64,000 bases of DNA from Verrucomicrobiota bacterium (GTDB taxonomy: Bacteria > Verrucomicrobiota > Verrucomicrobiia > Opitutales > Opitutaceae), in contig JACRQG010000046.1 in the NCBI GenBank assembly GCA_016222805.1, forward strand, positions 124,001 to 188,000, given 5' to 3'. Shown here in pieces: positions 3,075 to 33,913 of this stretch. Both the position numbers and the translations under genes were made by a program. The notes under the pieces are model-generated. The model saw nothing but the letters and a program-made list of their open reading frames with translations. It searched no databases and was not told the DNA's origin. The number at the start of each line of letters is the position of its first letter. Position 1 is the stretch's first letter.

Positions 3075-3152
3075 GTGGCCGGGGTCGTTGACCCCGGGAA
3101 ATCGGAAGTAATGTCCGACTGTGTTTCACCGGGCTCACCGAGCCCGGCTACA
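3075..3152 (+). repeat. Double-hairpin interspersed element, copy 1
   Basis: A hairpin of CCGGGGTC/GACCCCGG is followed by a 28-30 base spacer, then a hairpin of CCGGGCTC/GAGCCCGG. The outer ends are inverted (GTGGCCGG and CCGGCTACA). The spacer holds a weaker stem, TCGGA/TCCGA. It is the first of a tandem pair upstream of an FAD oxidoreductase gene. Confidence 0.9.
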
Positions 3153-3181
3153 ACGGGGCGGCATGGAGAGCTGCGGTCTGA

Positions 3182-3260
3182 TGTAGCCGGGGTCGTTGAC
3201 CCCGGGACATTGCCCTCGATGACGGTACGGTCCTCGCCGGGCTCGGCGAGCCCGGCTACA
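3182..3260 (+). repeat. Double-hairpin interspersed element, copy 2
   Basis: It has the same architecture as copy 1, with ends TGTAGCCGG and CCGGCTACA, a GGGGTC hairpin first and a GGGCTC hairpin second. Its last base lies directly before the TTG proposed as the start of the FAD oxidoreductase. Both copies are open in frame with that gene. Confidence 0.92.
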
Positions 3261-4961
3261 TTGCGGCGATCGCTGGCCGCGTTCGCCGCGCTGGCGGCGA
3301 CTCTGCTTTGCGGCGCGGGAGAAACCTCCTCGCATGACGTCGTCGTGTACGGCGGCACCTCCGGCGGCGTGACGGCCGCCGTGGCGGCGGCCCGGATGGG
3401 ACAATCCGTGGTGCTGATCGAGCCGGGCCGGCACCTGGGTGGACTCACCAGCGGCGGACTCGGCGCGACCGATATCGGCAAGAAGGAGTCGATCGGCGGC
3501 CTCTCCCGGGAGTTCTACCAGCGCGTCAAGAGACACTACGCGAACCCCGCGGCCTGGAAGTACGGGCGTCCCGATGAGTTTCGGAGCAACCAGCACGACC
3601 CCAAGGAGGACGTGATGTTCTACTTTGAGCCGCACGTGGCGGAGAAGATCTATGTCGACCTCCTGCGCGAGGCCAGGGTGGAGGTCGTGCGGGGGGAGCG
3701 CCTCGACTTGAAATCCGGCGTGGCCAAACACGGCACGCAAGTCGACGCGATCACGATGGAGTCGGGCCGGCGGTTTCGCGGGCGGGTGTTCATCGACGCC
3801 AGCTACGAGGGCGATCTGATGGCGAAGGCCGGGGTCAGGTACCTGGTGGGGCGCGAGTCCAACGCCACCTTCGGCGAAACGCACAACGGCAACCAGCCTT
3901 ACCTCCTGCGACGCCAGAAGGTGGCCTCGGCGCATGATTTTCGCCGCGCCGTCGATCCGTACGTTCGCCCCGGTGATCCGACCAGCGGCCTGATCTTCGG
4001 AGTGCAGCCCGGCGGCCCGGGCCCCGAAGGGGAAGGCGACCACCGCGTGCAGGCGTACTGTTTTCGCCTGTGTCTGACCAACGTGCCGGAGAACCGCGTG
4101 CCGTTCACCCGACCCGCCGACTACGACCCGGCGAAGTACGAACTCGTGGCGCGTTACCTGAACAGCGCGCAGATGCTGCCCGAATTCCCCACGGCCGGCG
4201 ACATCGAACATCCCGTGCTCGGCAACAACCTCACGCGACCGGAGCCGGTGGTCATCATGCCGAATCGCAAGAGCGATTCGAACAACAAGGACCCCGTCGG
4301 CTTCAACCTCATCGCGGGCAATTACGACTACCCCGACGCCGATCACGCCACGCGCGAACGCATCGTTCGCGAACACGTCAGCTGGCAGCAGGGGTTGATC
4401 TGGTTCTTCGTCAGCGACCCGCGCGTGCCGGAGAAGTACCGCGCACCGATGAAGGACTGGGGTTATCCCAAGGACGAATTCACCGACACCGGACACTGGC
4501 CGCACCAGCTCTACGTGCGCGAGGCGCGCCGCCTGCACGGTGCCCTGGTCATGACGCAGCGGCACTGCGACGGCACGTTGCCGGTCACGGACTCGATCGG
4601 CATGGGCGGCTACGCCATGGATTCCCACAACGTGCGCCGTTATGTCGACGAGAACGGCCACGTGCGTACCGAGGGAACGATCGGCCTCGGGGTGCGGCAG
4701 GCCTACCGGATCGGGTACGACGCCATCACCCCGCGGCGGGAGCAGTGCACGAATCTCCTGGTGCCGGTCTGTCTCTCCGCGACGCACGTCGCCTACGGCT
4801 CGATCCGCATGGAGCCGGTCTTCATGATCCTCGGCCACTCCGCCGGCGTCGCCGCCGCCCAGGCCATTGCGCAGCGGGCCGCCGTCCAGGCGATCGACCG
4901 GGCGCAGCTGCGCGCGGCGCTGCTGCAGCAGGGCCAGGTGCTGGAACGCCCCGCGCGTTGA
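3261..4961 (+). CDS. Exported FAD-dependent oxidoreductase (PF12831-like)
   Basis: TTG at 3261 gives 566 aa beginning with a good Sec signal peptide (RRSLAAFAALAATLLCGAG). ATG at 3219 or 3042 is in frame but would put repeat-encoded sequence before the signal. The Rossmann FAD site is VVVYGGTSGGVTAAVAAARMG, followed by GGLTSGGLGATD; IDASYEGDLMAKAG is the second conserved block. It belongs to the FAD_oxidored family often found in polysaccharide loci of Verrucomicrobia and Planctomycetes. The substrate is probably a sugar or sugar acid, but this is unproven. It is a close paralogue of the next gene, 11 bases downstream. Confidence 0.85.
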   Translation: MRRSLAAFAALAATLLCGAGETSSHDVVVYGGTSGGVTAAVAAARMGQSVVLIEPGRHLGGLTSGGLGATDIGKKESIGGLSREFYQRVKRHYANPAAWKYGRPDEFRSNQHDPKEDVMFYFEPHVAEKIYVDLLREARVEVVRGERLDLKSGVAKHGTQVDAITMESGRRFRGRVFIDASYEGDLMAKAGVRYLVGRESNATFGETHNGNQPYLLRRQKVASAHDFRRAVDPYVRPGDPTSGLIFGVQPGGPGPEGEGDHRVQAYCFRLCLTNVPENRVPFTRPADYDPAKYELVARYLNSAQMLPEFPTAGDIEHPVLGNNLTRPEPVVIMPNRKSDSNNKDPVGFNLIAGNYDYPDADHATRERIVREHVSWQQGLIWFFVSDPRVPEKYRAPMKDWGYPKDEFTDTGHWPHQLYVREARRLHGALVMTQRHCDGTLPVTDSIGMGGYAMDSHNVRRYVDENGHVRTEGTIGLGVRQAYRIGYDAITPRREQCTNLLVPVCLSATHVAYGSIRMEPVFMILGHSAGVAAAQAIAQRAAVQAIDRAQLRAALLQQGQVLERPAR

Positions 4962-4972
4962 ACCTCTCCCCC

Positions 4973-6712
4973 ATGACCCCGACTCAACTCTTCCCGCGGT
5001 TCTACGCCGCTCTCCTCGCCCTTCTCCCTGCGGCCGGCGCCGCCGAGTCCACGCCGCGGTACGATGTCATCGTCTACGGTGGCACCTCCGGCGGCGTCGT
5101 GGCCGCCGTTCAGGCGGCGCGCCTGAAGGCCTCGGTCCTGCTGATCGAACCGGGACAGCACCTCGGCGGACTCACCAGCGGCGGGCTCGGCGCGACGGAT
5201 TTCGGCCATCCCGACAGCATCGGCGGCATCTCGCGCGAGTTTTACCGCCGGGTGAAGCAGTATTACGCCAACCCGGCGGCCTGGAAGTATGAAAAACCCG
5301 GCGACTACCGCAGCCACCGACACGATCCGGCCGCCGACGTGATGTTCCACTTCGAGCCGCACGTGGCCGAGAAGATCTACCGCGAAATGGTCCGCGAAGC
5401 CGGCGTGACGGTGGTGTTTGGCGAACGGCTTGAGCTCAAGCGGGGCGTCGAGAAGGTCGGTCCGGAGATTCGCTCGCTCACGATGGAGTCGGGGAGGCGT
5501 TTCGCCGGCCGGATGTTCATCGACGCCACTTATGAAGGCGACGTGATGGCCAAGGCGGGCGTGACCTACACCGTGGGGCGCGAATCGAGTGCAACCTACG
5601 GGGAGCCGAAGAACGGCAACCAGTGGCGCCACATGCGCGAGCGCCCCCGGCCGGTCGGCCACGACTTCTTCCGCGCGGTCGATCCCTACGTGCGCCCCGG
5701 CGATCCCTCGAGCGGGACGATCTTCGGAGTGCCGGCGGCGGGGGCCGGCATTGAAGGCGCGGCCGACCATTCCGTGCAGGCGTACTGCTTCCGGCTCTGC
5801 CTGACCGATGTGCCGGAAAACCGCGCTCCCTGGCCGAAGCCGGCGGATTACGACCCGGCGCGGTACGAACTGCTGCTACGCTACCTCACGAGCCGGAAGC
5901 CCCTGCCCGAGTGGCCTTCCGCCCCGGAGGAAATCGAGCACCCCGTGCTCGGCCGCAGCCTGCTCGCCGTTCCCCCGGTCGTGATCATGCCGAACCGCAA
6001 GAGCGACTCGAACACGAAGGGCGCCGTTTCATTCAACCTGATCGGCGGCAATTACGACTACCCCGACGGCGATCATGCGACGAGGGAGCGGATCTTCCGC
6101 GAGCACGTGAGCTGGCAGCAGGGCCTGTGCTGGTTCGTGGCGAACGACCCGCGCGTGCCCGCGGACTACCGCGAGGCGATGAAGGCGTGGGGCCCCGCGC
6201 GGGACGAGTTTCCCGACACGGGTCACTGGCCGCACCAGCTCTACATCCGCGAGGCGCGGCGCATGGTCGGTGCGTTCGTCATGCGCCAGCAGGTGTGCGA
6301 GGGCACGGAGAGCGTCCCCGACCCGGTGGGCTGCGGCTCCTACACGATGGATTCCCACAATGTCCGCCGCTACATCGACGAGCACGGTTTTGTCCGCAAC
6401 GAAGGTACGCTCGGCATGCCGGTGAAGACACCCTACGGCATCAGCTACCGCTCGCTCATCCCGAAGAAGGAGCAGTGCACCAACCTGCTCGTGCCCGTCT
6501 GCATTTCGGCGAGCCATGTGGTCTACGGCTCCATGCGCATGGAGCCGGTCTTCATGGTGCTCGGCCAATCGGCCGCCACCGCCGCCGTCCAGGCCCTCGC
6601 CGCCCGCACCGCGGTGCAGGACATCCCGTATCCGGCGCTGCGCGACGCCCTCCGGCGCGACGGCCAGGTGCTGGCCGTCACCACCTCCAAAACCGAGGCA
6701 CGCAAGCGCTAG
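4973..6712 (+). CDS. Exported FAD-dependent oxidoreductase, tandem paralogue
   Basis: ATG at 4973 gives 579 aa with a signal peptide (FYAALLALLPAAGAA). The FAD Rossmann motif VIVYGGTSGGVVAAVQAAR is followed by GGLTSGGLGATDFG and IDATYEGDVMAKAG. It matches the preceding gene over nearly its whole length, including EHVSWQQGL, DTGHWPHQLY and CTNLLVPVC, so the two arose by tandem duplication. Differences cluster in the 300-360 loop and the C-terminus, which may mean different substrates. A receptor gene starts 32 bases later, and the spacing suggests one operon. Periplasmic oxidation of a glycan-derived sugar is the likely role. Confidence 0.88.
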   Translation: MTPTQLFPRFYAALLALLPAAGAAESTPRYDVIVYGGTSGGVVAAVQAARLKASVLLIEPGQHLGGLTSGGLGATDFGHPDSIGGISREFYRRVKQYYANPAAWKYEKPGDYRSHRHDPAADVMFHFEPHVAEKIYREMVREAGVTVVFGERLELKRGVEKVGPEIRSLTMESGRRFAGRMFIDATYEGDVMAKAGVTYTVGRESSATYGEPKNGNQWRHMRERPRPVGHDFFRAVDPYVRPGDPSSGTIFGVPAAGAGIEGAADHSVQAYCFRLCLTDVPENRAPWPKPADYDPARYELLLRYLTSRKPLPEWPSAPEEIEHPVLGRSLLAVPPVVIMPNRKSDSNTKGAVSFNLIGGNYDYPDGDHATRERIFREHVSWQQGLCWFVANDPRVPADYREAMKAWGPARDEFPDTGHWPHQLYIREARRMVGAFVMRQQVCEGTESVPDPVGCGSYTMDSHNVRRYIDEHGFVRNEGTLGMPVKTPYGISYRSLIPKKEQCTNLLVPVCISASHVVYGSMRMEPVFMVLGQSAATAAVQALAARTAVQDIPYPALRDALRRDGQVLAVTTSKTEARKR

Positions 6713-6744
6713 CACCCTCCCACCCCGAATTCCCCTCCCCAACC

Positions 6745-8946
6745 ATGAACACCCCGCTCCGTCCTCGTCGCGCGGCGGCTTGGTCCGCCTGCCTGCTGCC
6801 TTTCCTCGCACACGCGCAATCCGCGCCTTCGGCGGCCAGCGCCACAACCTCCTCGTCCAGCCAGGAGATCATCAAGCTCGACGAGTTCACCGTCTCCGCC
6901 TCGACCGACGACGGCTACAAGGCCACCAACGTGCTCTCCTGCACCCGCTTCAACACCGCGCTGCTCGACCTGCCCAAGCCGATCGACGTCGTCACCCGCG
7001 AGTTCATGAACGACATCGGTGCCCGCGACATCACCGAGGCGCTGCAGTACACCCCGGGCATCGCCGTCACACGCGAGACCGACCATGCGGGCAAGACCGA
7101 CAGCGACGTGCTGGTCCGCGGTTTCGCCGGCGGCGGGGGCGGCGTCTCCAGCGGCGGCGGCAACCAGTACATCAACGGTTACCGCACCTTCGGCAACTTC
7201 GACAGCCTCTCCATCGAGCGGATCGAGGTGCTGAAGGGCCCTTCCTCCCTGTTCTCGTGGGCAATCGGGGCCGGCGGGGCGATCAACACCGTCGTCCGCC
7301 AGCCGACCGAACGACGGAAGGGCTCGTTGATGCTGTCCGCCGGCTCGTTCGACAAATACCGCCTGGAACTCGAGCACTCCGGGCCCCTCACCTCGGATCG
7401 CAAGCTGCTCTACTGGGTGGGCGTTGGCGTCCAGGACTACGGGAGCCACATGGATTTCGCCAACTACCGGCGCGTGGTGATCTCGCCGACGCTGCTCTGG
7501 AAAGCGACGCCGCGGACCAACGTCACGCTCTTCGCGCAGGCCATGCACAACGAACAGGTGCCCGCCTCGCACCCGGTCTTCATGCAGCCGGACCTCCAGG
7601 CCTACCTGACGGACGTGCCGCGCTCCTTCAACCGCATGGGCCCGGAGGCGTTCAACGACTCCGAGCAGTTGCACGTGATCGCCGACGTCGTGCATGCGAT
7701 CAACGACAACTGGACGGTGAAGTTCGGCGGCATCTACCGCGGAATCGAGGGCTGGCGCAACCTGGTGACCGGCGGCACCACCGTGACCATCAACGCCACC
7801 ACGCGGGTGCGCACGCTGCCCCGGTCCGCCGCGGCGATCTACCAGCCGGAGCACGGCTTCGCGACCCAGGGTTATCTTCTCGGCCGGATGCACTATGCCG
7901 GCCTGGTGCACAAGGCGATCGCGGGCTACGAGTACTTCTCCCAGGCGAGCCAGGAGGATGTGCGGCAGCCGCGCCCGAACCTGACCGCGATCAACGTCGA
8001 CAATCCGAACTTCGCGGTCGGCGATCCGTTGAGTTATCCGCGCCTCGCCGGCCGCTATGGCAAGAGCCGACTCATCTCCCGGAGCTATTCCGCCAACAAC
8101 CTCTGGCAGGCCTTCCAGCAGCGTTTGACGATGCAGTTGGGCGTCCGGCGCGACGAGACCTACCAGGCGCGCGATGACTTCCAAACTCCAAGCGCCTCCT
8201 TCAGCGGCAAGGCCAAGCCCGCGGATCTCATCAGTGGCGGCGCCGCGTGGCGCGTGCTGCCCCGGGTCGCACTCTTCGTCTCCTACAGTGAATCCTACGA
8301 ACCCCTCGTGAAGTCGGACTATTTCGGGCGGCCGTTCGACCCGCGCGAGGGTATCGGGATGGATTACGGCCTGCGCTGGGACGAAGCGACCGGCCGCATC
8401 TCCGCCACGGTGACGGGATTCACGGTGGTGAACTCCAACCTCGAACAGGCCGACCCCGATCACGCTGGGTTTCAGGTGCAAACCGGCGAAAACAAGTCGC
8501 AGGGTGTCGAGTTCAGTCTGTTTGCCCGACCCGTGAAGGCCTGGCAGGTGGTGGGCAGCTACACCTACAACGAGACCCGCGTGGTGAAGGACCCGCGCGT
8601 GCCGGCCAATGTCGGCCTGCCAACGGCAAATGCGCCCCGCGACTCCTGGAATCTGTGGAATCGCTACCGCTTTGAGAGCGGCCCGGTGAAGGGTCTCGGG
8701 CTCGGCGTCGGGGTGGTGTTCGTCGGCCAGCGCCGGGGCAATCCCAACCTGGCCAACAACCCCGGCATCCGCAGTCCCGCGTACCATCGATGGCAGGCCA
8801 GCGCCTCCTACGCGGCCAGGCTCTTCGAGCGGAAGACGACGTTCTCGCTCAACGTGAACAACGTCTTCGACACGTTCTACCGCCAGAGCTACGCCGGGCT
8901 CGGCGAACCCCGAAGCGTCACGGGCCGGGTGACGTTTGAATTTTGA
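6745..8946 (+). CDS. TonB-dependent receptor (siderophore-receptor-like)
   Basis: The protein is 733 aa with a signal peptide ending near AHAQS. A TonB-box-like segment follows (IIKLDEFTVSA), then the plug domain (LPKPIDVVTREFMNDIGARDITEALQ at about 75-100, VLVRGFAGGG, IERIEVLKGPSSL). The 22-strand type barrel ends in TGRVTFEF. A Gly-rich loop (GGGGGVSSGGGNQ) interrupts the plug. By sequence it is siderophore-receptor-like, but it sits among exported sugar enzymes, so a glycan fragment is a likelier ligand. The ATG was chosen because it gives the signal peptide; upstream sequence in the same frame belongs to the overlapping FAD gene. It is probably co-transcribed with both neighbours. Confidence 0.93.
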   Translation: MNTPLRPRRAAAWSACLLPFLAHAQSAPSAASATTSSSSQEIIKLDEFTVSASTDDGYKATNVLSCTRFNTALLDLPKPIDVVTREFMNDIGARDITEALQYTPGIAVTRETDHAGKTDSDVLVRGFAGGGGGVSSGGGNQYINGYRTFGNFDSLSIERIEVLKGPSSLFSWAIGAGGAINTVVRQPTERRKGSLMLSAGSFDKYRLELEHSGPLTSDRKLLYWVGVGVQDYGSHMDFANYRRVVISPTLLWKATPRTNVTLFAQAMHNEQVPASHPVFMQPDLQAYLTDVPRSFNRMGPEAFNDSEQLHVIADVVHAINDNWTVKFGGIYRGIEGWRNLVTGGTTVTINATTRVRTLPRSAAAIYQPEHGFATQGYLLGRMHYAGLVHKAIAGYEYFSQASQEDVRQPRPNLTAINVDNPNFAVGDPLSYPRLAGRYGKSRLISRSYSANNLWQAFQQRLTMQLGVRRDETYQARDDFQTPSASFSGKAKPADLISGGAAWRVLPRVALFVSYSESYEPLVKSDYFGRPFDPREGIGMDYGLRWDEATGRISATVTGFTVVNSNLEQADPDHAGFQVQTGENKSQGVEFSLFARPVKAWQVVGSYTYNETRVVKDPRVPANVGLPTANAPRDSWNLWNRYRFESGPVKGLGLGVGVVFVGQRRGNPNLANNPGIRSPAYHRWQASASYAARLFERKTTFSLNVNNVFDTFYRQSYAGLGEPRSVTGRVTFEF

Positions 8947-8977
8947 TTCTGCGCCACCGCCTCGCCTTCCTTTCGCC

Positions 8978-11292: not shown

Positions 11293-11306
11293 GCCGATTT
11301 TCACCC

Positions 11307-12011: not shown

Positions 12012-12036
12012 AGACCCGCACCCGAGTTCGTTGCAC

Positions 12037-14223: not shown

Positions 14224-14267
14224 CGCCGCCGGCAGAGGGCCGGCCTCCAATCCCCTTCGAATCCACC

Positions 14268-15164
14268 ATGAGCTCATCCCTGTCCTCACGCCGCACGTTT
14301 CTCCGACACACCATGCTTGGCACGCTGGCCGTCTGCACGGGGCCGCGGCTCCGCGCGGCCGCCCACGGCCTGACGATCGGCCTCTCCCAATACTCGCTCA
14401 AGGGGTTGTTCACCGCCAAGACCCTCGACCCGCTGGACTACCCGGCCTTCGCCCGGAGGGAGTTCGGCATCACCGAGCTCGACCTCTGGGAGGGCGGGCT
14501 GCCCGCGGACCGGCTCGACGACGACCGTTACCTCGCCGAACTCCGGAAGCGCGCGGCCGACGCCGGCACGCACCTGTTCCTGCTCATGGCGGGCGTGGTC
14601 GACGCCACCGGGGGTGCGGGCAAGGCCAAGAAGAAAGCCAAGCCCGCAGACCACGCGCGTTCGATCGAGCGCTCCGCCCAGCTCGGCTGCCAGTACGTCC
14701 GCTTCTTCGTCAGCGCGCCCGAGGGCGATCGCGCCGCCGCCGTGGCTCGTTGCACCGAGGCCCTGGCGCCGCTCGCCGAAGTCGCCAAGGCCCGCGGTAT
14801 CACGATCGCGATCGAGCCGGGCGCGTCGACGCACACCCAGGATGGCGCGTTCCTCGCCGCGGTCGCGACGCGGCTCGGCCACTCGCACTGCCGGCTCATG
14901 CCCGACTTTGGCAAGCTCCGCGGCGACATCTACGCGGGGACGGAGGCGATGATGCCCCACGCGGCCGTCATTTCGGCCAAGACCCACGAGTTCGACGACG
15001 CCGGCAACCAGGTCGAGTTCGACTACTTCCGCCTGATGAAGATCGTCGCCGCCGCCGGCTTCCGCGGGATCGTCGCCATCGAGTGGGAGGGCAAGAAGCT
15101 CGACCCCGTCGCCGGCGTGCACGCCTCCAAGAAGCTCATCGAGCGCGCCCTCGCCGCGGTGTGA
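14268..15164 (+). CDS. Exported sugar phosphate isomerase/epimerase-like TIM-barrel protein
   Basis: ATG at 14268 gives 298 aa. An N-terminal twin-Arg signal is likely (SSRRTFLRHTMLGTLAVCTG). The AP-endonuclease-2 type TIM barrel is seen from IGLSQYSLK, ELDLWEGGLPADR, ITIAIEPGAS, CRLMPDFGKL and GIVAIEWEG, which supply the acidic and His metal ligands of the fold. Homologues with this signal are frequent beside Gfo/Idh and DUF1080 genes and are thought to isomerise keto-sugars or act as lyases. Co-location here supports the same pathway. No experimental function is implied by the sequence alone. Confidence 0.85.
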   Translation: MSSSLSSRRTFLRHTMLGTLAVCTGPRLRAAAHGLTIGLSQYSLKGLFTAKTLDPLDYPAFARREFGITELDLWEGGLPADRLDDDRYLAELRKRAADAGTHLFLLMAGVVDATGGAGKAKKKAKPADHARSIERSAQLGCQYVRFFVSAPEGDRAAAVARCTEALAPLAEVAKARGITIAIEPGASTHTQDGAFLAAVATRLGHSHCRLMPDFGKLRGDIYAGTEAMMPHAAVISAKTHEFDDAGNQVEFDYFRLMKIVAAAGFRGIVAIEWEGKKLDPVAGVHASKKLIERALAAV

Positions 15165-15193
15165 TGCCTTCATGCATTGTTCTTTCTCGTCCT

Positions 15194-15271
15194 GTGGCCG
15201 GGGTCGCTGACCCCGGGAGAATCAGTCGATACTTCGGCTGATCGAGCCCGGGCTCCGCGAGCCCGGCTACA
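15194..15271 (+). repeat. Double-hairpin interspersed element, copy 3
   Basis: The GGGGTC hairpin comes first (GGCCGGGGTCGCTGACC) and the GGGCTC hairpin second, with outer ends GTGGCCGG and CCGGCTACA. The spacer holds its own stem, ATCAG/CTGAT around TTCG. It lies 35 bases upstream of a Gfo/Idh gene in the same orientation, between two genes of the same strand. Confidence 0.9.
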
Positions 15272-15306: not shown

Positions 15307-16668
<1,362 letters not shown>

Positions 16669-21281: not shown

Positions 21282-21289
21282 GGCCTCCC

Positions 21290-22645: not shown

Positions 22646-22654
22646 CGCTCCCGC

Positions 22655-24190: not shown

Positions 24191-24198
24191 GGAGAGAA

Positions 24199-26748
24199 TC
24201 ACGAGTCGCGTTTGAGGGTCCGGTAGGTGAGCCCGGTCAGGTCGCGGGGTTTGCCGCTCCACACCCGGCCCGCCAGCCAGCCGATGACGAAGCAGGAGGT
24301 CAGCCCGATGGGCGCGTACGCGTAAACGTTGAGGGGCAGCACCAACCGAATCGTGAAGACGATCGCGGCGCTGCCGACCGCGCCGATCAAGGCTCCGCGG
24401 CCGCCGGCGCGCGTGCTGAAGATGCCGAGGAGAAACATCCCGCTCAGCGTCCCGCCCAGCAGGCCGAGCACCTCGAGAAAGGCAGTGTAGAACGACCGGA
24501 TGTCGGTGCTCGCCATGACGAGGGCCAGGGTGGTGCCCGCAACGCCGATCGCCACCGTCGCCCATCGCGCCGTGCGGAGATAGTGCCCCTCGTCCCTCCC
24601 GGGGAGGAAGCGGCGGTGAAAGTCCGTCACGTACGCCGTCGCCACCGAGTTCATGCTGCTCGCCAGCGTCGATTGTGCCGCCGCAAAGATCCCGGCCACG
24701 ATCAGGCCGGCCACCCCGGCCGGCAATTCGGCCATCATGAAGTAGGGGAAGATGGCGTCGTTTTGCAGGGCCGGGTCGAGGCGCCCCGGGTTCTGGCGAT
24801 AGAAGACGTAAAGGGCGGTGCCGATGGCAAAGAACACCGCCTGCGCGGGCGCGCACAGGAGGGCGTTGAGCCAGATGCCGCGGGCGGCCGTCCGCTGGTC
24901 CGGCGTCGTGACGTAGCGCTGCACGACATCCTGGCTCGCGGTGTAGGGGAAGAGATTGTGGAAGAGGCTGCCGATGAGAATGGTCCAGCCCGAGGCCACC
25001 GTGAGATCCCAGGACCAGTCGACCGTTTCGAAGAAATGCCGGCCCTCCGTCGCCAGGCGGATCGTTGTTCCGATGCCGCCCTCCACCCGGAACAGGATGA
25101 AGCCAAGGCTCAAGAACGCGCCGCCGAGCAGGATGAACGCCTGCGCCACATCGGTCCAGATCACCGCCTCGATACCACCCACCACGGTGTAGGCGATGCA
25201 CAGCACGCCCATGACGAGGATGCAGGTCTGGAGGTCGAAATCGCTGACGGTCGCGAGCGCCAGCGCCGGGAGGTAGAGCACGATGGCGATGCGACCGAAC
25301 TGGTAGAGCATGAACAGCGTGCTGCCCGCCAGCCGCGTGCCGAGGTTGAAGCGCCGTTCGAGGTACTCGTAGGCCGAAGTCACATTCAGCGTCCGGTAGA
25401 AGGGCAGGAACACGAACACCACGACGGGCGTGATCAGGATGTACGAGTTGGCGAGGAACAGGTTCCAGCCGTCGGTGTACGCGACGGCGGGGAGCGCCAT
25501 GAAGGTGATGGAGCTGAGCATCGTCGCAAAGATGCTCAGGCCGGCCGCCCACCAGGGGATGCGCTGCCCTCCCCGGAAGAAGTCGTTGGTGTCCTTGTTG
25601 CGTTTCGCGCAGGCGGCGCCGATCCACACCATCGCCGCCAGGTACACGCCGAGCATCGTGTAGTTGAGCCAGCCAAAGCTGGCTTTGCGCGGCGCCGCGC
25701 GCAGCGACCAGACATCCGGCGAACGCACGCCCGGCCGCACCTCGCCACTCGGCATGACAAAGGTGTCGCCCCAGCGCACCAGCGGAGTCGTCACGTGGGC
25801 CCGCGGCATCTTCCCCGAATCGCGCCAGGTGTTTGTGATGGTGTGATAGGTGAGAATGCGCCCGGGGAAGCCCGGGTGCTGGGCCAGCGGCGTGAAGGTG
25901 GCCAACGACCCGTCGTCGCCGCCGAGGATGAGGAAACTCGACTGCCCGAGGGCCGGCGCCGGCGTGGGCGGCGCGACCACCGGATGGGGCAGATCCGCCA
26001 CCCGCTGCCAGCCGCGCCCCGGCTGATACCGGTACGCGTCGTTCAGATACGTGCGGGCCGGCTTGCCCTGCGCATCGGGCGCCAGCGACGTGCCGCCGAC
26101 GAGATAGAACGCCTTGTCCTGCACCGCCGCCGTCGCGAGCATGCGGCCCGGACCGGGCCAGGGTTCGAGTTCGCGCCAGCGGGGATTTGCCTCGCCCAAG
26201 TCCAGCGCCCAGAAGGTGTGCAGGGCGGTCGTCGAGCCGGGGGTCTCGATGCCTCCCGCGACGTAGAGGGTGTTGCCCAGCTGGGCGCCGCAGAAGTTGG
26301 CCACCGGCTTGGGCAGCGACGGGAGCGGCGACGTCTCCAAACGACCGTTCACCCAACGCAGCAGGAAGCTGTCGGCGTAGTGGCGCTGCAGATCGCTGCC
26401 CCCAAGGCAGGCGACGCCTTCCCTGGTGGTGAGAGAAACGCCGTAGCCGAGCGGCCGTGACAGCCGGCCGGCGACCTTCCAGGCGCCGTCGGGTTTCTCC
26501 AGGACGAAGACGGTGTCATACCAGACCTTGGCCCCACCCTCCCAGGGCTTCTTCTCCGGGAAGTTGGCGCCGCCGGCGACGAGGAGTGCGCCGTTGCTCA
26601 CCCCCGCATAAGGATAGGCGAAACCCTCGCGATCCGGGAGCGACGGCAACTTGGACCATTGCAGCGGGTCCGGGGTTGCGGACGGCGGTGGAGCCGCCAT
26701 CCCGGTTCCGGCGAGGCAAAGCACGGAGACCAGCAAGAGCGAAGGCAA
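24199..26748 (-). CDS. Kelch beta-propeller (NanM/mutarotase-like) fused to sodium:solute symporter
   Basis: TTG at 26748 gives 849 aa beginning with a signal peptide (LPSLLLVSVLCLAGTGMAA). ATG at 26964, which overlaps the upstream sulfatase stop, is in frame but reads through two repeat elements first. Residues about 30-390 are Kelch-like blades (LLVAGGANF, LYVAGGIETPG, FYLVGGTS, FLILGGDDGS) like the cyclically permuted mutarotase NanM. From about 410 a full SSS transporter follows (GWLNYTMLGVYLAAMVWIG, NDFFRGGQRIPWWAAGLS, IASTDIRSFYTAFLEVLG-type helices). The propeller would sit in the periplasm before the first helix, perhaps interconverting sugar anomers for import. It sits in the sulfatase operon; sialic acid or another sugar is possible. 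Confidence 0.88.
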   Translation of the reverse strand: MPSLLLVSVLCLAGTGMAAPPPSATPDPLQWSKLPSLPDREGFAYPYAGVSNGALLVAGGANFPEKKPWEGGAKVWYDTVFVLEKPDGAWKVAGRLSRPLGYGVSLTTREGVACLGGSDLQRHYADSFLLRWVNGRLETSPLPSLPKPVANFCGAQLGNTLYVAGGIETPGSTTALHTFWALDLGEANPRWRELEPWPGPGRMLATAAVQDKAFYLVGGTSLAPDAQGKPARTYLNDAYRYQPGRGWQRVADLPHPVVAPPTPAPALGQSSFLILGGDDGSLATFTPLAQHPGFPGRILTYHTITNTWRDSGKMPRAHVTTPLVRWGDTFVMPSGEVRPGVRSPDVWSLRAAPRKASFGWLNYTMLGVYLAAMVWIGAACAKRNKDTNDFFRGGQRIPWWAAGLSIFATMLSSITFMALPAVAYTDGWNLFLANSYILITPVVVFVFLPFYRTLNVTSAYEYLERRFNLGTRLAGSTLFMLYQFGRIAIVLYLPALALATVSDFDLQTCILVMGVLCIAYTVVGGIEAVIWTDVAQAFILLGGAFLSLGFILFRVEGGIGTTIRLATEGRHFFETVDWSWDLTVASGWTILIGSLFHNLFPYTASQDVVQRYVTTPDQRTAARGIWLNALLCAPAQAVFFAIGTALYVFYRQNPGRLDPALQNDAIFPYFMMAELPAGVAGLIVAGIFAAAQSTLASSMNSVATAYVTDFHRRFLPGRDEGHYLRTARWATVAIGVAGTTLALVMASTDIRSFYTAFLEVLGLLGGTLSGMFLLGIFSTRAGGRGALIGAVGSAAIVFTIRLVLPLNVYAYAPIGLTSCFVIGWLAGRVWSGKPRDLTGLTYRTLKRDS

Positions 26749-26766
26749 CCAGCCGGGAGAGCGCCT

Positions 26767-26845
26767 GTGGCCGGGCTCGCTGAGCCCGGGGCGATCCGGA
26801 CGGACCTCGGTTCCTTTTGGGCCGGGGTCACCGACCCCGGCTACA
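26767..26845 (-). repeat. Double-hairpin interspersed element, copy 4
   Basis: Read on the minus strand it has the same order as copies 1-3 (GGGGTC hairpin, spacer, GGGCTC hairpin, ends TGTAGCCGG and CCGGCCACA). It lies upstream of the Kelch-symporter gene in that gene's orientation. Its spacer is almost the same as that of copy 5, pointing to recent tandem duplication. Confidence 0.92.
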
Positions 26846-26870
26846 CCAATCGTGAGACCGCACGTACCCC

Positions 26871-26950
26871 TGTAGCCGGGCTCGTCGAGCCCGGGACAAG
26901 CCGGACGGACCTCGGTCCCTTTTGGGCCGGGGTCAACGACCCCGGCTACA
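26871..26950 (-). repeat. Double-hairpin interspersed element, copy 5
   Basis: It has the same structure and nearly the same spacer (CGGACGGACCTCGGT) as copy 4. Its outer end lies 11 bases from the stop codon of the upstream sulfatase. The minus strand is open through both copies in frame with the symporter. Confidence 0.92.
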
Positions 26951-26960
26951 TGTCCGGTTC

Positions 26961-28421
26961 TCATTTGGCGGCCCTCTTCTTCTTGCCCTTCTGCGGCGGC
27001 TGCACGTTGGGATCGTAATCCGGATTGGGTTTCATCATCTCAGCGCCCACTTCTTTCCGCCACGCCTCCAGTTCGCGCCGCAGTTCGGCGGTCCTCGCGG
27101 CGTGGTCGGCGGCGAGATTGTGCTTCTCACCCAGATCCTCCGCCAGGTTGTAGAGCTCCACGCCCTCCGGGTCGAAGGTCTCGATCAACTTCCAGGTCCC
27201 CTTGCGGATGACGCTGGAGGGCACACTCGACGGATGGTCGTTGTAGTGCGGGAAATGCCAGAAGATCGCGGTGCGGTCGAGCGAGGCGCCGCCCGCGAGG
27301 ACGGGTTGCAGGTTGAGCCCGTCGACGTGCTGGTGCGGCCGGGGCTGCAGGCCCGCCGCCGCCAGACACGTGGGGTAAAGGTCGGTGCTGGTCACCGGCT
27401 CGGCGCTCACCGCCCCGACTCGCCCCACCCCGGGCCATTTGATGATCAGCGGCACGCGGATGCCTCCTTCGTAGTACGCCCCCTTGTTGGCCCGCAGCGG
27501 CGCGTTGCTCGTGGCATTGTAGAAACCCCCGTTGTCAGAGGTGAAGATGACGAGCGTGTTCTGCTCGAGGCCCAGTTCGCGCAGCGTCGCCATCACCCGT
27601 CCCACGCTCTCGTCCATGCTCTCCACCATCGCCGCATAGACCGGTTTGCCCTGCTGCTGCGCCTCGGAGACCTTCTCGTACTTCGCCACCCTCTCGGGTT
27701 TCGCCTGCAGCGGGGTGTGCACCGCGTAGTGCGGGAAGTAGAGGAAGAAAGGCCGCGCGCGGTTCTCGCGGATGAAGTTCACGGCCTCGTCCGTCAGGCG
27801 GTCGGTGAGATACTCGCCCGGCTTGCCGTCGGGCAGCAAGTTCCACTTCGCCCTCAGGCCCGTGGTCGGGATCGCCCAGTCTCCGTCGTAGGGGTGGAAG
27901 TACGTGCCCGGCGCCCCGTGCGCGTTGCCTCCGATGTTGACGTCGAACCCATGGTGCTCGGGCAGGGAAAACGGCTCGCTGCCGAGGTGCCACTTGCCGA
28001 TGCTGGCGGTGCGGTACCCGGCCTCGCGCAGCGCCTCCGCCAGCGTGAACTCCTCGAGCGGCAGCCCGCGCACGAACCGCGCGCTTTGCAGCTTCGCCTT
28101 CGGATGCCAGCGGCCGTTGGGCAGCCAGTCGGTGAGCAGCAGCCGCGCCGGGTACTTGCCGGTCAGCACCGCCGCGCGCGTCGGCGAACAGACGGCGCAC
28201 GCCGCATAGGCATCGGTGAAGCGCACGCCCTCGCGGGCGAGGCGGTCGATGTTCGGCGTCTGGTAATAGGTGCTGCCGTTGGCGCCGATGTCGCGCCAGC
28301 CGAGATCGTCGATCAGGAAGAGGACGATGTTGGTCCTGCCGGCGGGCGCAGGTCGGTCGGCGGCGAAATGCGCGGTCAGCGGCAGGCACAGCAGGAAGGC
28401 GAAGACGGAGCGTCGGAGCAT
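26961..28421 (-). CDS. Exported arylsulfatase-type sulfatase (S1 family)
   Basis: 486 aa with a signal peptide (SVFAFLLCLPLTAHFA). The signature is AVCSPTRAAVLTGKYPARL, with Cys78 as the formylglycine precursor. NIVLFLIDDLGWRDIG provides the metal-binding Asp pair, and VIFTSDNGG the second Asp/Asn set. GKWHLGSEPFSLPEHHGFD is the conserved middle block. It resembles arylsulfatase A of the kind found in plant- or algal-glycan loci. The C-terminus is Lys-rich (PQKGKKKRAAK). Its stop overlaps a possible ATG at 26964 that opens into the repeats before the symporter. It follows the hydroxyacid dehydrogenase gene by 51 bases. Confidence 0.93.
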   Translation of the reverse strand: MLRRSVFAFLLCLPLTAHFAADRPAPAGRTNIVLFLIDDLGWRDIGANGSTYYQTPNIDRLAREGVRFTDAYAACAVCSPTRAAVLTGKYPARLLLTDWLPNGRWHPKAKLQSARFVRGLPLEEFTLAEALREAGYRTASIGKWHLGSEPFSLPEHHGFDVNIGGNAHGAPGTYFHPYDGDWAIPTTGLRAKWNLLPDGKPGEYLTDRLTDEAVNFIRENRARPFFLYFPHYAVHTPLQAKPERVAKYEKVSEAQQQGKPVYAAMVESMDESVGRVMATLRELGLEQNTLVIFTSDNGGFYNATSNAPLRANKGAYYEGGIRVPLIIKWPGVGRVGAVSAEPVTSTDLYPTCLAAAGLQPRPHQHVDGLNLQPVLAGGASLDRTAIFWHFPHYNDHPSSVPSSVIRKGTWKLIETFDPEGVELYNLAEDLGEKHNLAADHAARTAELRRELEAWRKEVGAEMMKPNPDYDPNVQPPQKGKKKRAAK

Positions 28422-28472
28422 GAGGGGAAACGCAGGGCAGAGATCGCGGGGGGGGGCGGCTTAAGGCGGCAG

Positions 28473-29426: not shown

Positions 29427-29738
29427 GGGAAGGCGTGAAGTGAGGGTTATTCTGCCAGGTTTGGGTGGGCGGGGCGAACTCGCGCCGCACCCGTCGATTC
29501 AGAGCCCGGCTCGCGCGGGGCGAGGTCGCCCCGCCCACAAGGGAACACCGACAGAGTGAATCGACGGGTCATCCCGCCACTTGCCTGATCGGTCGATGGC
29601 GTGGCGGAAACTTCGGGTCGTTCGGCGGGCACTGCGGGAGATGCTGCTCCGTCGCGCCGCGCCGGAAGGCCATGGGGCCGTTGCTTCGATGAGTGCATCC
29701 GTTGAGGTTGGGCAGGTGAGGCTGGCGGCGCCTGCCGC
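29427..29738. other. 312-base spacer between a sulfatase and the dehydrogenase gene
   Basis: The first half holds the GC-rich palindromic element described separately. The second half has no gene. Near 29711-29744, at the stop of the sulfatase at 29739, GGCAGG/CCTGCC and GGTGAG/CTCACC can form alternative stems that may terminate that gene on the minus strand. No T-run follows. Confidence 0.4.
29465..29569. repeat. GC-rich palindromic element, second family
   Basis: GTGGGCGGGGCGA (29465-29477) is inverted at 29526-29538. A near-perfect hairpin, GCGGGGCGA/TCGCCCCGC, spans 29515-29534, and the first arm is a degraded version of it. ACCCGTCGATTC (29489-29500) is inverted at 29558-29569. The layout (two hairpins, inverted outer ends) parallels the main repeat family, but the sequence is different. 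Confidence 0.75.
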
Positions 29739-31220
29739 TCACCCGGCCTTCTTCCTGCCCTTCTTCGAGAGCGACGGCGTGTCGGTCCTGGGCAGCCACT
29801 GCGCGAGCCGGGCCTTCACCGCCGCGTACTCCGGCTGACCGGCGAGGTTGGTCCACTCATTCGGATCGCGATCGTGATCGTAGAGTTCTTCGCCTCCGTC
29901 GGCATAACGGATGTAGCGCCAGCGCTCGTCGCGCACGGCGTGGTTGCCCTGCCCGTGCGTGGTCAGCGCCGGCCGATCCCAGGTTCGCTGCGGATCCCGC
30001 AGCAGCGGCACGAGGCTCTGGCCGTCGAGCCCGGGCACCGCCGGCAGGCCGCAGAGTTCGTTCAGCGTCGGGAACAAGTCGACGAAGCCCACCGGCCGCG
30101 CGGTGCGGGTGCTCGGTTTCCCCACCCCGGGGGCCGCGATGATGAAGGGCAGGCGGGTGGATCGATCCCAAAGTGTGAACTTGTGGAGGTGCTGTTTTTC
30201 CCCGAGGTGGAAGCCGTTGTCCGACCAGAACACGACGATGGTGTTCGACGCCGCCGGGCTGCGGTCCAGCGCATCCAGCAGCCGCCCGACGAGGGCGTCG
30301 CAGAAACTGATGTTGGCGAGGTAGGCCTGGAGCACGCGGCGGTACTGCCCGGCCTGCTTCACCATCACGAGATCCTCGGCCCGGTCGGCCGCCATCCGGC
30401 GACCACCCTCGGGCAGGTCGTCGAGGTCGTCGTCCTTGACCGGCGGCAGCGTGACTTTGTCTTCCGGATACATGTCGAAGTACCGGCGCGGCGCATACCA
30501 CGGCAGGTGCGGGCGGTAGATGCCGGCGGCGAGGAAGAAGGGCTGCGCGGGCGGCCGGGCGAGGAACCGTTCCGCCCACTGCACCATCCTGGCGTCGCCC
30601 ATTTCGTCATCGCTCTTGTCGAAGGGGCCCCAGTCGAACTCGTTTGAATTCTGCGGCGGGCGGGCCAGCGCCTTGACCGCCGGCAGGCCGTTGAGCGGAA
30701 AGCCGTCGGGAAAGGCGAACTTCTTCGTGTCCCCGCCGCTGGCCCAGAGGGTCTGGTAGTGGCTGTCGAAGACCTGGTTGAAGTAATCGTGCCAGTCGCT
30801 GCGGCGGTTGAAGCCGGGCGGATGGTGGTAGATCTTGCCGCCTCCGGCGACGTGGTACCCCTGAGCCTTGAAATGCTGCGGGATGGTCGCGATGCCCGGG
30901 AGCACCTGGTGCCAGACCACATCGTTGCCATAGGCGCCGGTGGAACTGGGCCGGCGGCCGGTCAGCGTAGCGATGCGCGAGGGATTGCAGACGGGCGCGG
31001 GACAGTGCGCATTGGTAAAGAGGAGCCCGCGGGCCGCGAGCCGATCGAGGTTCGGCGTCTTGACGTCGGGGTGCCCCCCCAGACAGCCGATCCAGTCGTT
31101 CAGATCGTCCGCGATGATCATCAGGACATTGGGACGAGAAGGGGCCGCGGCATGCCCCACCGCGAGAACCCCGAAGCCGGCCAGGGCCGGCAGAAACGCC
31201 CGGCGAAGGAAACGCTTCAT
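29739..31220 (-). CDS. Exported sulfatase (iduronate-2-sulfatase/choline-sulfatase-like)
   Basis: 493 aa with a signal peptide (AFLPALAGFGVLAVGHAAA). The signature is APVCNPSRIATLTGRRP with Cys78 as the formylglycine precursor. VLMIIADDLNDWIGCLGGHPDV gives the first metal-binding residues and VVFWSDNGFHLGEKQHLHK the second set. IYRPHLPWYAPRRYFDMYP is typical of iduronate-2-sulfatase relatives. The C-terminus is Lys-rich (SKKGRKKAG). Its ATG overlaps the stop of the upstream sulfatase (31217-32752) by four bases, so the two are translationally coupled. It probably removes sulfate from a polysaccharide imported or digested by this locus. Confidence 0.93.
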   Translation of the reverse strand: MKRFLRRAFLPALAGFGVLAVGHAAAPSRPNVLMIIADDLNDWIGCLGGHPDVKTPNLDRLAARGLLFTNAHCPAPVCNPSRIATLTGRRPSSTGAYGNDVVWHQVLPGIATIPQHFKAQGYHVAGGGKIYHHPPGFNRRSDWHDYFNQVFDSHYQTLWASGGDTKKFAFPDGFPLNGLPAVKALARPPQNSNEFDWGPFDKSDDEMGDARMVQWAERFLARPPAQPFFLAAGIYRPHLPWYAPRRYFDMYPEDKVTLPPVKDDDLDDLPEGGRRMAADRAEDLVMVKQAGQYRRVLQAYLANISFCDALVGRLLDALDRSPAASNTIVVFWSDNGFHLGEKQHLHKFTLWDRSTRLPFIIAAPGVGKPSTRTARPVGFVDLFPTLNELCGLPAVPGLDGQSLVPLLRDPQRTWDRPALTTHGQGNHAVRDERWRYIRYADGGEELYDHDRDPNEWTNLAGQPEYAAVKARLAQWLPRTDTPSLSKKGRKKAG

Positions 31221-32752
31221 TTGTTCTTCCGTTTCTTCCGACCCTGGGCTTCCGCCTCAGCCGAGCCCTTCGGCGGCGGTTCCTGGCCGAAGAAATAGTA
31301 GGGGTATTCCCACGACATCTCCCGTGCCAGCTGCTTCGATCCGGCGGAGACCTCGGCCGTCAGGCGCCGAAGGTGGTCGGGATTCAGCAAGGGGTCCGCC
31401 GTCTCCTTCCGCCATCCAGCCAGCGCGCCCTGCAACTCCGCGAGCACGGAGGCGTGGGCGGCCTGGTCGGCAAGGTTCCGGAATTCGAAGGGATCCGTCT
31501 GCAGGTCGTAGAGTTCCCAGCGCGGCGGCCGTTCCATCCGGGCGTACGCCGCGCGCACCTCTGTGGGCGCGGCGGCGATGGCCGCCCCCAGGTCGGCCTC
31601 GAGGTGGTGCAGGGTGAACTCGTAGCCGGCGTTCACTTCCCCCGGCAGCAGGTTCTCGATCAGCTTGTAGCGGTCGGTGCACACCGTGCGCTGCGGGTAG
31701 TAGTTGTTGCGGCCGCCGTGGGTGTGGTACTCGGTGAAAAGATAGCGGCGCCACTCGGTCTTCTCCGCGCGCAGGAGCGGCACGAGCGAACAACCAGCCA
31801 GCCCGGCCACCGGCGCCGCGCCGGCGGCGGCGAGCACGGTGGGCATCAGGTCCACCGTGGACACGAGGTCGTCGCGCACCTGCCCGGCCCGGGCCTGGCC
31901 CGGCCAGCGCACGAGCAGTGGCACGCGCACACCGCCCTCATAGGAGGTGCGCTTGCCGCGCAGCATGTCGGCCCCGTGATCGCCGAAGTACACGACCAGG
32001 GTGTGGTCCGCCTTGCCCGATCGCTGCAGCACGGCGAGCAACTCGCCGACGAGGACATCGAGCCGGTTCATGCAATTGTAGTAGTTCGCCACACACGCGC
32101 GCAGGTCCGGGCGATCGACGCCCATGTAGGGCATGGGCTTCACGTCCTTGCCGTCGAGGGGTTGGGCGGGCAGGCCGTTCACCTGCCGTGTCCACGGCTG
32201 GTGGGTGTCGGGGTAATTCACGCTCAGGAAGAACGGCTGGTCGGAGGCCCGGATGAAGGCCTCGGCGTGGCGCGCGTAGTCGGCGAGACCCTTGCGGGCG
32301 AAGTTCGCGTTGTGGATTTCCCAGAAGTCGAACGGGAACGCCGACTCCGGATTGATGTGCAGCTTGCCAATAAGACCGGTGCGGTAACCGGCGGATTTCA
32401 GCCTGCGCGGCAGGTTGGGCAGATCCGGGCGGTACAGGCGGAATCCCCAGGTGGCCAGTCCGAGCTGGCCGTTCTGATGGGGATACAGCCCCGTCATGAT
32501 GCTCGAACGCGACTGGCTGCAGCCGGCCTGGGTCACATACGCACGGGTGAAGCGGACGCCCTCGGCCGCCAGCCGATCGAGGTGGGGCGTGCGGGCGTAG
32601 GGGTCGCCGTAACAGCCGAGTTCCGGCCCGTTATCCTCGGAGACGATGAAGAGAATGTTGGGCCGCTCAGGAGGGGCGCCCCTCGCCCCCGTGACCGCAG
32701 ACAGCGCAAACCAGACTCCCAGCAGGCTGTGGCGACAAAGGCGAAAGATCAT
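31217..32752 (-). CDS. Exported sulfatase with CSQSR active-site motif (heparan N-sulfatase-like)
   Basis: ATG at 32752 gives 511 aa with a signal peptide (SLLGVWFALSAVTGARG). The active-site region reads AGCSQSRSSIMTGLYPHQNG: Cys78 is in place, but the consensus Pro two residues on is Gln. FIVSEDNGPELGCYGD replaces the usual DD pair with SED-N, as in sulfamidase-like enzymes. VVYFGDHGADMLRGK is the second metal-site block. The C-terminus is Lys-rich (QGRKKRKNK). It is first in the sulfatase run and overlaps the next gene by four bases. Activity is likely but depends on whether CSQSR is accepted by the maturation enzyme. Confidence 0.9.
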   Translation of the reverse strand: MIFRLCRHSLLGVWFALSAVTGARGAPPERPNILFIVSEDNGPELGCYGDPYARTPHLDRLAAEGVRFTRAYVTQAGCSQSRSSIMTGLYPHQNGQLGLATWGFRLYRPDLPNLPRRLKSAGYRTGLIGKLHINPESAFPFDFWEIHNANFARKGLADYARHAEAFIRASDQPFFLSVNYPDTHQPWTRQVNGLPAQPLDGKDVKPMPYMGVDRPDLRACVANYYNCMNRLDVLVGELLAVLQRSGKADHTLVVYFGDHGADMLRGKRTSYEGGVRVPLLVRWPGQARAGQVRDDLVSTVDLMPTVLAAAGAAPVAGLAGCSLVPLLRAEKTEWRRYLFTEYHTHGGRNNYYPQRTVCTDRYKLIENLLPGEVNAGYEFTLHHLEADLGAAIAAAPTEVRAAYARMERPPRWELYDLQTDPFEFRNLADQAAHASVLAELQGALAGWRKETADPLLNPDHLRRLTAEVSAGSKQLAREMSWEYPYYFFGQEPPPKGSAEAEAQGRKKRKNK

Positions 32753-32946
32753 GGGGCGGGGCGACACGGACAACCTTGGCAGTCCTCGCAGCGGCAGGAA
32801 AGCCCAGGCTATGCGGTACTTTTGCTGGACCACCTGCGGGCCCGGTCACCCCTCCCCCACGGCGCAGCCCAACCTTCACCAGCGACCGGGCCACCTCTCA
32901 CTTTTCTGTTTTCCCTCAGCCCAGTCATCGTTCAATGCCCGGCACC
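32753..32946. other. Divergent promoter region
   Basis: 194 bases separate the sulfatase run on the minus strand from the DUF971 gene on the plus strand. It must contain promoters for both directions. I could not identify clear -35/-10 boxes or a strong inverted repeat. Confidence 0.4.
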
Positions 32947-33249
32947 ATGCACACTCCCGTCAACCTCCAACTCATCGGGCAGGAAATCGCCATCGCCTGG
33001 GACGACGGGGCCGAAACCTACGTCACCTGCGAGCGGTTGCGCGCCGCTTCGCCTAGCGCCGCCAACATGGGGGAGCGCGACATCCTCGGCAACCAGTACG
33101 GCGGCGACGGCCCGAAGCAGTTTCCCGGGGTGACCGTCCTCGGCTGGGAGAAAATCGGCAACTACGCGATCCGGTTCGATTTCAGCGACGGCCACCGCAC
33201 GGGCCTGTACAGCTACGACTATTTGCGCGCGCTCGGTGCCTCCCCGTGA
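32947..33249 (+). CDS. DUF971 / gamma-butyrobetaine hydroxylase-like N-terminal domain protein
   Basis: ATG at 32947 gives 100 aa. ATG at 32935 is an alternative four codons upstream. The protein matches the small DUF971 family: NLQLIGQEIAIAWDDGAETYVTCERLRAASP at the start, then WEKIGNYAIRFDFSDGHRTGLYSYDYLRAL. The family resembles the N-terminal domain of gamma-butyrobetaine hydroxylase and occurs alone in many bacteria, sometimes near iron-sulfur genes. No motif points to a particular reaction. It is probably cytoplasmic. It precedes hisI by 51 bases on the same strand. Confidence 0.83.
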   Translation: MHTPVNLQLIGQEIAIAWDDGAETYVTCERLRAASPSAANMGERDILGNQYGGDGPKQFPGVTVLGWEKIGNYAIRFDFSDGHRTGLYSYDYLRALGASP

Positions 33250-33300
33250 CGGAAAGGGGGATTGCCATGGGCGGGGCCGCTCGCAAACAAACGGACGCCC

Positions 33301-33765
33301 ATGAGCACCTACGTCTTCCCCGCCCGTACGAGCACCGCCGAGATCGAGCTCGGCAGCACCCTGCAGCCCAAGTTCGGCCCCGACGGCCTGATCCCCTGCA
33401 TCACCCAGGATGTGCACACGGGCGAGGTGCTGATGTTCGCCTTCATGAACGCGGAGTCGCTGGCCCACACCCTGAAGACCAGGAAGGCCACCTACTGGAG
33501 CCGCTCGCGGCAGAAACTCTGGGTGAAGGGAGAAGAGTCGGGCAACGTCCAGCACGTGCGGGAACTCCGGACGGACTGCGATCAGGACGTGCTCCTGATC
33601 AAGGTTGAGCAAAGCGGCGCCGCCAACGCGAGCTGCCACAACGGCTACAAGTCCTGTTTCTACCGGAAGCTCTCCGACCTCGAGGCCGCCGCGGAGGGTG
33701 ACTATCGCCTGGCCTTCACGGCGGAGCGCCTCTTCGACCCGGCCACGGTCTACAAGAAGAAGTAA
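33301..33765 (+). CDS. hisI: Phosphoribosyl-AMP cyclohydrolase
   Basis: ATG at 33301 gives 154 aa. The enzyme opens the purine ring of phosphoribosyl-AMP in the third step of histidine synthesis, in the cytoplasm. Recognisable blocks are [39 protein letters not shown], the metal-binding [13 protein letters not shown] and the Cys-containing [15 protein letters not shown]. It is the monofunctional form without a fused HisE domain. No other his gene is in the window. In-frame codons from 33262 are rejected because they lie outside the family's usual start. Confidence 0.95.
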
Positions 33766-33833
33766 GTCCGCGGCGATTCGTCGGGAGACCCGCCCGGAGA
33801 AGTCGCAACCCAAATACCCCCGGGCGCTGCCGG

Positions 33834-33913
33834 GTAGCCGGGTGCGGTGAGCCCGGCACGAGCGACCCGTGAATCGATCGCCTTCGCTGCCGGGGTCGCC
33901 GACCCCGGCTACA
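33834..33913 (-). repeat. Double-hairpin interspersed element, copy 6
   Basis: Read on the minus strand it starts TGTAGCCGGGGTCGGCGACC and ends with a damaged GGGCTC arm (GGGCTCACCGCACCCGG) and CGGCTAC. It lies between the convergent hisI and beta-helix genes, the only good copy not upstream of a gene. Confidence 0.85.

Follow-up and report, generated by a model that had tools for sequence, protein, structure and literature searches.

The window analysed here, a 64-kb stretch of a Verrucomicrobiota bacterium (positions 124001-188000 of contig C34 in the own genome, G000, which comprises 7.9 Mb in 51 contigs), contains six paired-hairpin elements that very probably represent bacterial interspersed mosaic element (BIME)-type pairs of one GTAG-tagged family of repetitive extragenic palindromes (REPs), shared by several genomes of the same bacterial family, non-autonomous and copied in trans by a REP-associated tyrosine transposase (RAYT/TnpA-REP). 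The kind of element is already known, REP/BIME repeats occurring in many bacteria; the added value lies in a linked RAYT and in a counted rule of unlike arms, a near-universal mismatch that hints at why such pairs survive.

All six copies lie within 1 base of the positions given in an earlier sequence-only reading of the whole window (Table 1), each built of two inversely oriented 23-base arms that carry the GTAG tag at their outer ends. The arms follow the consensus GTRG-CCGG-NN-[T/G]C-GNN-GA-N'N'-CCGG, with GTAG (or GTRG) immediately 5' of a palindrome of 20-40 nt, as in GTAG-tagged REPs, and the inverse REPs joined by a linker, including tandem pairs at 3074/3182 and 26766/26871, display the organization of BIMEs. 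The stems are perfect (T-A) or carry a single G·A mismatch, unlike those of E. coli REPs, which need a bulge. The two arms, first taken for different sequences, do differ at a compensated 2-bp switch in the stem, but both are one REP in inverse orientation; likewise, the proposed order of a GGGGTC hairpin followed by a GGGCTC hairpin applies to copies 1-3, whereas copies 4-6 are the same element reversed, with GGGCTC first. The supposedly uniform ends are only partly so, with TGTGGCC as the left tag in three of the six copies and G for T before the left tag of copy 6, and the spacers, put at about 28 bases, measure 31-33 bases between the 23-base arms. The claim that stems are kept despite sequence variation stands for the arms: the stem dinucleotide is compensated across 354 arms, namely (i) GG/CC in 163, (ii) CC/GG in 98, and (iii) GC/GC in 66, with other combinations in 27. 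Since the bases adjoining the tag are conserved beyond it (T 0.90 and A 0.85 in the own-genome pairs whose flanks were long enough), TGTAG...CTACA is likely the full element end. Across the window, 35 matches to the hairpin pattern were found at up to three mismatches, each arm mostly counted on both strands, versus 2.94 expected and a maximum of 10 in 100 shuffles.

The small stem suggested within the spacer did not hold up as a third conserved hairpin and was rejected. With RNA parameters and mononucleotide shuffles, the signal is weak in the subfamily of the window (Stouffer Z -2.5, 10 copies), nearly half of it coming from copy 3 alone (z -3.7), and no spacer stem was found in the 16 copies of the subfamily with 27-base spacers (Z 0.24).

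Searching the whole genome with the GG/GC version of the pattern at up to two mismatches gave 231 matches, versus 2 for the reversed control, a figure that understates the CC version, the arms of which mostly exceed the mismatch limit; the outcome named beforehand as fatal to a mobile family, just these six copies, is thus not what the genome displays. Exact-pattern pairs number 39 with spacers of 0-30 and 14 with spacers of 31-60 (each listed on both strands), and 67 own-genome pairs were collected with one mismatch allowed per arm, a set that is partly unbiased (1.11 Mb of contigs C34, C51, and C46) and partly taken around known pairs. Their spacers cluster at 1-3, 23-24, 27-29, and 31-33, the GG arm is combined with a CC or a GC arm (GGxCC or GGxGC) in 64 of the 67, and 62 are extragenic, the high-copy, mostly extragenic distribution typical of REPs. 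Within the 1.11 Mb, the fixed part is intact in 35 of 42 doublet arms versus 10 of 35 singlets, some of the latter being chance matches, since the reversed control yields 13 at up to two mismatches and none intact. The 27-base spacers share 62% identity across 16 copies, of which one tandem pair is identical, versus 27% after shuffling and, being far more alike than shuffled sequence, argue that pair and spacer spread together; within the window, spacers are conserved between tandem copies 4 and 5 only. Ten GGxGC pairs with spacers of 31-33 were found in the genome, including the degenerate copy 6, and six of them occupy 31 kb of the window; with exact matches and tandems merged, four of seven sites fall within these 31 kb (P 2e-5 under uniform placement, for an interval picked post hoc), a clustering that was considered as a possible sign of local hopping.

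Beyond the own genome, the hairpin is present at up to one mismatch in 20 of 76 genomes (own included), all of one bacterial family, the richest being G029 (158), the own genome (125), G045 (89), G047 (61), and G001 (60). No copy was found at this threshold anywhere in same-genus genomes such as G007 and G009. In G029, a single contig of 5,957,605 bp from the same bacterial family, 32 of 46 pairs display 1-2 bp spacers, versus 6 of 67 in the own genome.

The window contains no RAYT or Y1 transposase match, in agreement with the sequence-only reading, and the linked RAYT gene proposed there as a check is present in the same genome, on contig C8, flanked by the repeat. The search with NF047646 (REP-associated tyrosine transposase, cut-off 80 bits) matched five genes, three of them above the cut-off. 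The C8 RAYT matches PDB entry 4er8, 'TnpArep', at 6.4e-10, and is a distant relative of E. coli TnpA-REP when compared by sequence; H66, H68, and Y128 are invariant over the 11 sequences aligned, as in HUH enzymes, with Y128 the putative catalytic tyrosine. The gene is surrounded by five GTAGCCGGGGTC hairpins, among GGxCC pairs of the REP family of the window. Relatives in G029 (63%) and G001 (62%) both have GTAGCCGGGGTC in their flanks along with GGGCTC or GGCCTC arms, and one in G035 (55%) has a GGGGGC version of the hairpin there. The resemblance to REP/BIME elements served by RAYT-type enzymes is supported by the GTAG tag, the inverted and tandem pairs, the many copies, and a REP-flanked RAYT in three genomes. 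More broadly, at 30 named RAYT loci, chosen from at least 80, GTRG hairpins of at least 20 bases lie within 450 bp of the RAYT in 22, seven of these with GCCGG adjoining the tag, and their density is 1.97 per kb near the RAYT versus 0.08 per kb beyond 1 kb in the same loci. A RAYT at least 50% identical occurs in 9 of 76 genomes, including a partial one in G013 (59%) and leaving out G016, which displays a short 56% fragment and a main piece of the gene at 46%; the REP is present in six of these nine versus 14 of the 67 without such a RAYT (Fisher p 0.008; p 0.022 without the own genome).

The other RAYT matches of the genome were considered as cognate enzymes and rejected: two further RAYT genes, at C38:323025 and C51:45794, are each flanked by a separate inverted pair family of a different sequence, in which the arms are likewise unlike, and two RAYT-like genes, C34:91989-92369 and C46:66659-67027, fall below the NF047646 cut-off, the search around each of them finding no direct repeats and a single imperfect inverted pair, its arms separated by over 800 bp.

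A site without the element was found in a relative at the position of copy 3, the one of the six that was compared. In G007, of the same genus, both genes around copy 3 are adjacent and 87% and 81% identical, the gap between the aligned blocks being 127 bp versus 258 bp in the window, and the orthologous junction contains no GTRG hairpin.

The most regular property of the family is the dissimilarity of the two arms of a pair. Among 177 pairs from eight genomes, with spacers searched up to 30 in relatives other than G029, the arms are unlike in 153, alike in three, and include a degenerate arm in 21. The unlike combinations are GGxCC (90), GCxGG (57), and CCxGC (3); the three like-armed pairs occur one each in G001, G045, and G047, with spacers of 13, 25, and 29 bp. 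At spacers up to 6, none of 94 pairs has like intact arms, and 14 more have a degenerate arm. Random pairing within genomes predicts more like pairs than were observed: 27.0 versus 0 in the own genome, 15.6 versus 0 in G029, 6.1 versus 1 in G001, 5.5 versus 1 in G045, and 3.7 versus 0 in G042, these five being the sets covered and the smallest ones (G003, G047, and G048) left out.

Fold energies, computed with DNA parameters after excluding the five of 177 pairs whose two arms share a dinucleotide, relate this dissimilarity to structure. For the 106 pairs with spacers up to 6, the two-hairpin and one-hairpin forms are equal at a mean of -17.2 kcal/mol each, the former being more stable in 55, whereas in models with matched arms (one arm the mirror of the other) the long hairpin gains an advantage of about 15 kcal/mol and none of the 106 retains a better two-hairpin form. 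With longer spacers, the matched-arm models favour the long hairpin by about 20 kcal/mol, and the two-hairpin form is more stable in 13 of 66 real pairs; the minimum-energy fold is the long hairpin in four of the six window copies. Judged from these energies in real pairs against matched models, the 2-bp switch weakens arm-to-arm pairing and leaves neither hairpin weakened; it may affect RAYT recognition or, by way of palindrome cleavage or slippage, survival. We tentatively propose, as a possibility somewhat short of an even chance, that each of the three interchangeable stem versions (GG, GC, and CC) pairs with the other two but scarcely ever with its own kind, since pairs able to zip into one long hairpin are removed by selection or by the transposase, the switch holding the fold balance near zero at short spacers.

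Copying from a small number of mismatched founder pairs, in the absence of selection against matched arms, could instead be all that makes the arms unlike, an explanation that we consider rather unlikely although the pairs are copied along with their spacers and the GGxCC and GGxGC types make up 64 of the 67 own-genome pairs. Founders alone sit poorly with the existence of all three unlike combinations, which G029 by itself holds, when matched arms occur just three times and at spacers of 13, 25, and 29 bp, and with the unlike arms of the two other RAYT-linked repeat families, those of C38 and C51.

According to the reading as BIME-type pairs, the elements would be, or would have been, copied in trans as single-stranded DNA by the C8 RAYT/TnpA-REP, which would recognise the GTAG tag and hairpin on one strand, the pair presumably moving as a unit. 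The GC-arm subfamily of the window may use the same C8 enzyme, the relatives of which in G029 and G001 are flanked by GG and GC arms. A pair would survive only with unlike arms: with a gap of 0-6 bp, matched arms would amount to a near-perfect ~47-bp palindrome and fold into one long hairpin, prone to deletion or blocking recognition, and the 2-bp stem switch (GG, GC, or CC plus complement) would keep each hairpin while weakening pairing between the arms. Effects on neighbouring genes, such as transcript ends or mRNA stability, would be secondary.

Several observations weigh against this reading, or against parts of it. A single one of the six positions enters the empty-site comparison, with intergenic DNA outside the element unalignable and the exact insertion point unseen, and no movement was observed. 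The own C8 RAYT is adjoined by GGxCC pairs, not by the GGxGC type of the window. Five of the eight genomes with at least 20 REP matches (G003, G042, G045, G047, and G048) are without a RAYT at least 50% identical, and in G045, a single contig, the best relative reaches 44% and no flanking GTRG hairpin was found; in such repeat-rich genomes the enzyme may have been lost, a distant one may serve, or, except in G045, a gap in the draft may hide it. Among the 67 own-genome pairs, at least 11 lie inside an element resembling a miniature inverted-repeat transposable element (MITE) and may have spread with it. Concerning the arms, pairs are kin by descent, so that 153:3 does not represent 177 independent events and the figures are inflated; the contrast in like arms between short and long spacers reaches p 0.06 only; and at spacers above 6 bp the mean energy of the 66 real pairs still lies 3.3 kcal/mol on the side of the long hairpin.

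It is improbable that the pairs are selected RNA elements, that is, bidirectional terminators or stabilisers of mRNA 3' ends, in place of mobile repeats, although their distribution lends this explanation some weight. According to a simple codon-usage gene caller, 26 of the 62 extragenic own-genome pairs lie between convergent genes versus 17% of intergenic bases, an enrichment, and nine between divergent genes versus 30%, a depletion (chi-square p 5e-7, optimistic as tandem copies are counted singly). All window copies are intergenic, which for copies 1 and 2 depends on the start of the next gene (frame open from 3042); copy 2 is flanked by two plus-strand genes as called, copy 3 sits between plus-strand genes 14313-15164 and 15307-16668, and the five window copies between co-directional genes all have the GG arm first along transcription. 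However, a fixed orientation relative to transcription was rejected, since genome-wide 14 pairs between co-directional genes are GG-first versus 13 GG-last. Five of the 67 own-genome pairs and 15 of the 46 in G029 are inside called genes, divergent genes flank nine own-genome pairs, no copy at up to one mismatch occurs in genomes of the same genus such as G007 and G009, and a search of the window against Rfam gave no family at gathering thresholds. Promoter avoidance accounts for the distribution equally well, the convergent/divergent pattern being as expected for elements tolerated away from promoters.

The MITE-like element concerns 11 near-identical own-genome pairs with a 3-bp spacer, which sit in a repeat of ~110 bp; a strict search for its ends in the DNA stretches collected gave 12 matches, every one with a REP pair inside. 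That the pairs at large are passengers of such a larger inverted-repeat element, with its own transposase and not a RAYT, is very unlikely: the 11 pairs (8 identical) have common flanks, about 35 bp on the left and 24 bp on the right, that end in imperfect inverted repeats GGGCGCATCTG...CAGATGCGCCC, and such an end lies within 45 bp of 15 of 67 pairs (up to five substitutions in 20 bases), namely the 11 and four possibly by chance, but this loose search leaves 52 of the 67, including all six window copies, without one, and flank conservation over all own-genome pairs is strongest at the adjoining T (0.90) and A (0.85), with C at +3 (0.75) partly owed to those 11.

Within the literature, the sequence-only statement that no named family carries this repeat appears doubtful. 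The survey of Di Nocera et al. (2013, PMC3733652) reports a high enrichment of GTAG repeats in the relative Opitutus terrae and names GTAG-17, -19, and -20 there; by its description, compared here in place of a consensus sequence, the family is probably identical with an already described GTAG family and probably covered by that survey at the family level, both displaying a GTAG/GTGG tag, a short stem-loop, inverted dimers, and high copy number. Partners in the O. terrae GTAG-17 and GTAG-19 dimers are 1-2 bp apart according to the survey, as in 32 of the 46 G029 pairs and unlike the window pairs, with their spacers of 31-33 bp. The same source reports that heterodimers are preferred in most families, a preference that 'has no obvious explanation', states unlike arms for Enterobacteriaceae, and proposes protection from SbcCD-type, palindrome-processing removal as a reason; three alternative arms, a linked RAYT, many copies, and several genomes render this heterodimer question countable and directly testable. 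The inverted REP pairs, GTAG tag, and RAYT beside REPs resemble the E. coli BIME/TnpA-REP system as presented in PMC8266576, where REP/BIME dissemination is called poorly understood. Similarly, the REPINs of P. fluorescens SBW25, as reported in PMC3116915, share the inverted doublet, regarded as replicative unit, doublets better conserved than singlets, and a linked RAYT; those doublets are described as symmetrical and predicted to form one long hairpin, whereas the family of the window displays unlike arms and about equal folds at short spacers. A word search of PMC12306157 gave no mention of Verrucomicrobia, Opitutaceae, or RAYT, and a limited literature search on REPs of Opitutaceae found no report besides PMC3733652.

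Table 1. Coordinates of the repeat pairs, flanking genes, C8 RAYT gene, and MITE-borne pairs; positions refer to the window unless a contig of G000 is given.
Feature	Position	Strand	Remarks
REP pair 1	3074..3152	+	GG arm then GC arm, spacer 31; tandem with copy 2
REP pair 2	3182..3260	+	GG arm then GC arm, spacer 31; separated from copy 1 by 29 bp
REP pair 3	15193..15271	+	GG arm then GC arm, spacer 31; absent at orthologous G007 junction
REP pair 4	26766..26845	-	Reversed: left GC arm, right GG arm; spacer 32; tandem with copy 5
REP pair 5	26871..26950	-	Reversed; spacer 32, resembles copy 4 spacer
REP pair 6	33834..33913	-	Reversed; left arm degenerate, GGGTGC; spacer 33; convergent neighbours
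FAD-dependent oxidoreductase (PF12831), flanking	3261..4961	+	Start uncertain; copies 1 and 2 fall within its frame, open from 3042
Gfo/Idh/MocA oxidoreductase, flanking	15307..16668	+	
Sulfatase (PF00884), flanking	26961..28421	-	
Phosphoribosyl-AMP cyclohydrolase (PF01502), flanking	33301..33765	+	
C8 RAYT	C8:120111-120572		95.3 bits versus NF047646 cut-off 80
MITE-borne pairs	C13:140595, C25:213056, C34:115275, C36:15541, C36:114699, C36:190264		
MITE-borne pairs, continued	C38:190004, C46:299804, C49:261357, C49:427034, C51:83427		

Concerning coding sequences, the GG arm leads in the coding direction in 13 of the 15 G029 pairs called inside genes. In the window, an 833-aa frame on the minus strand (24199-26700) joins an N-acetylneuraminate-epimerase-like Kelch domain and a sodium:solute symporter.

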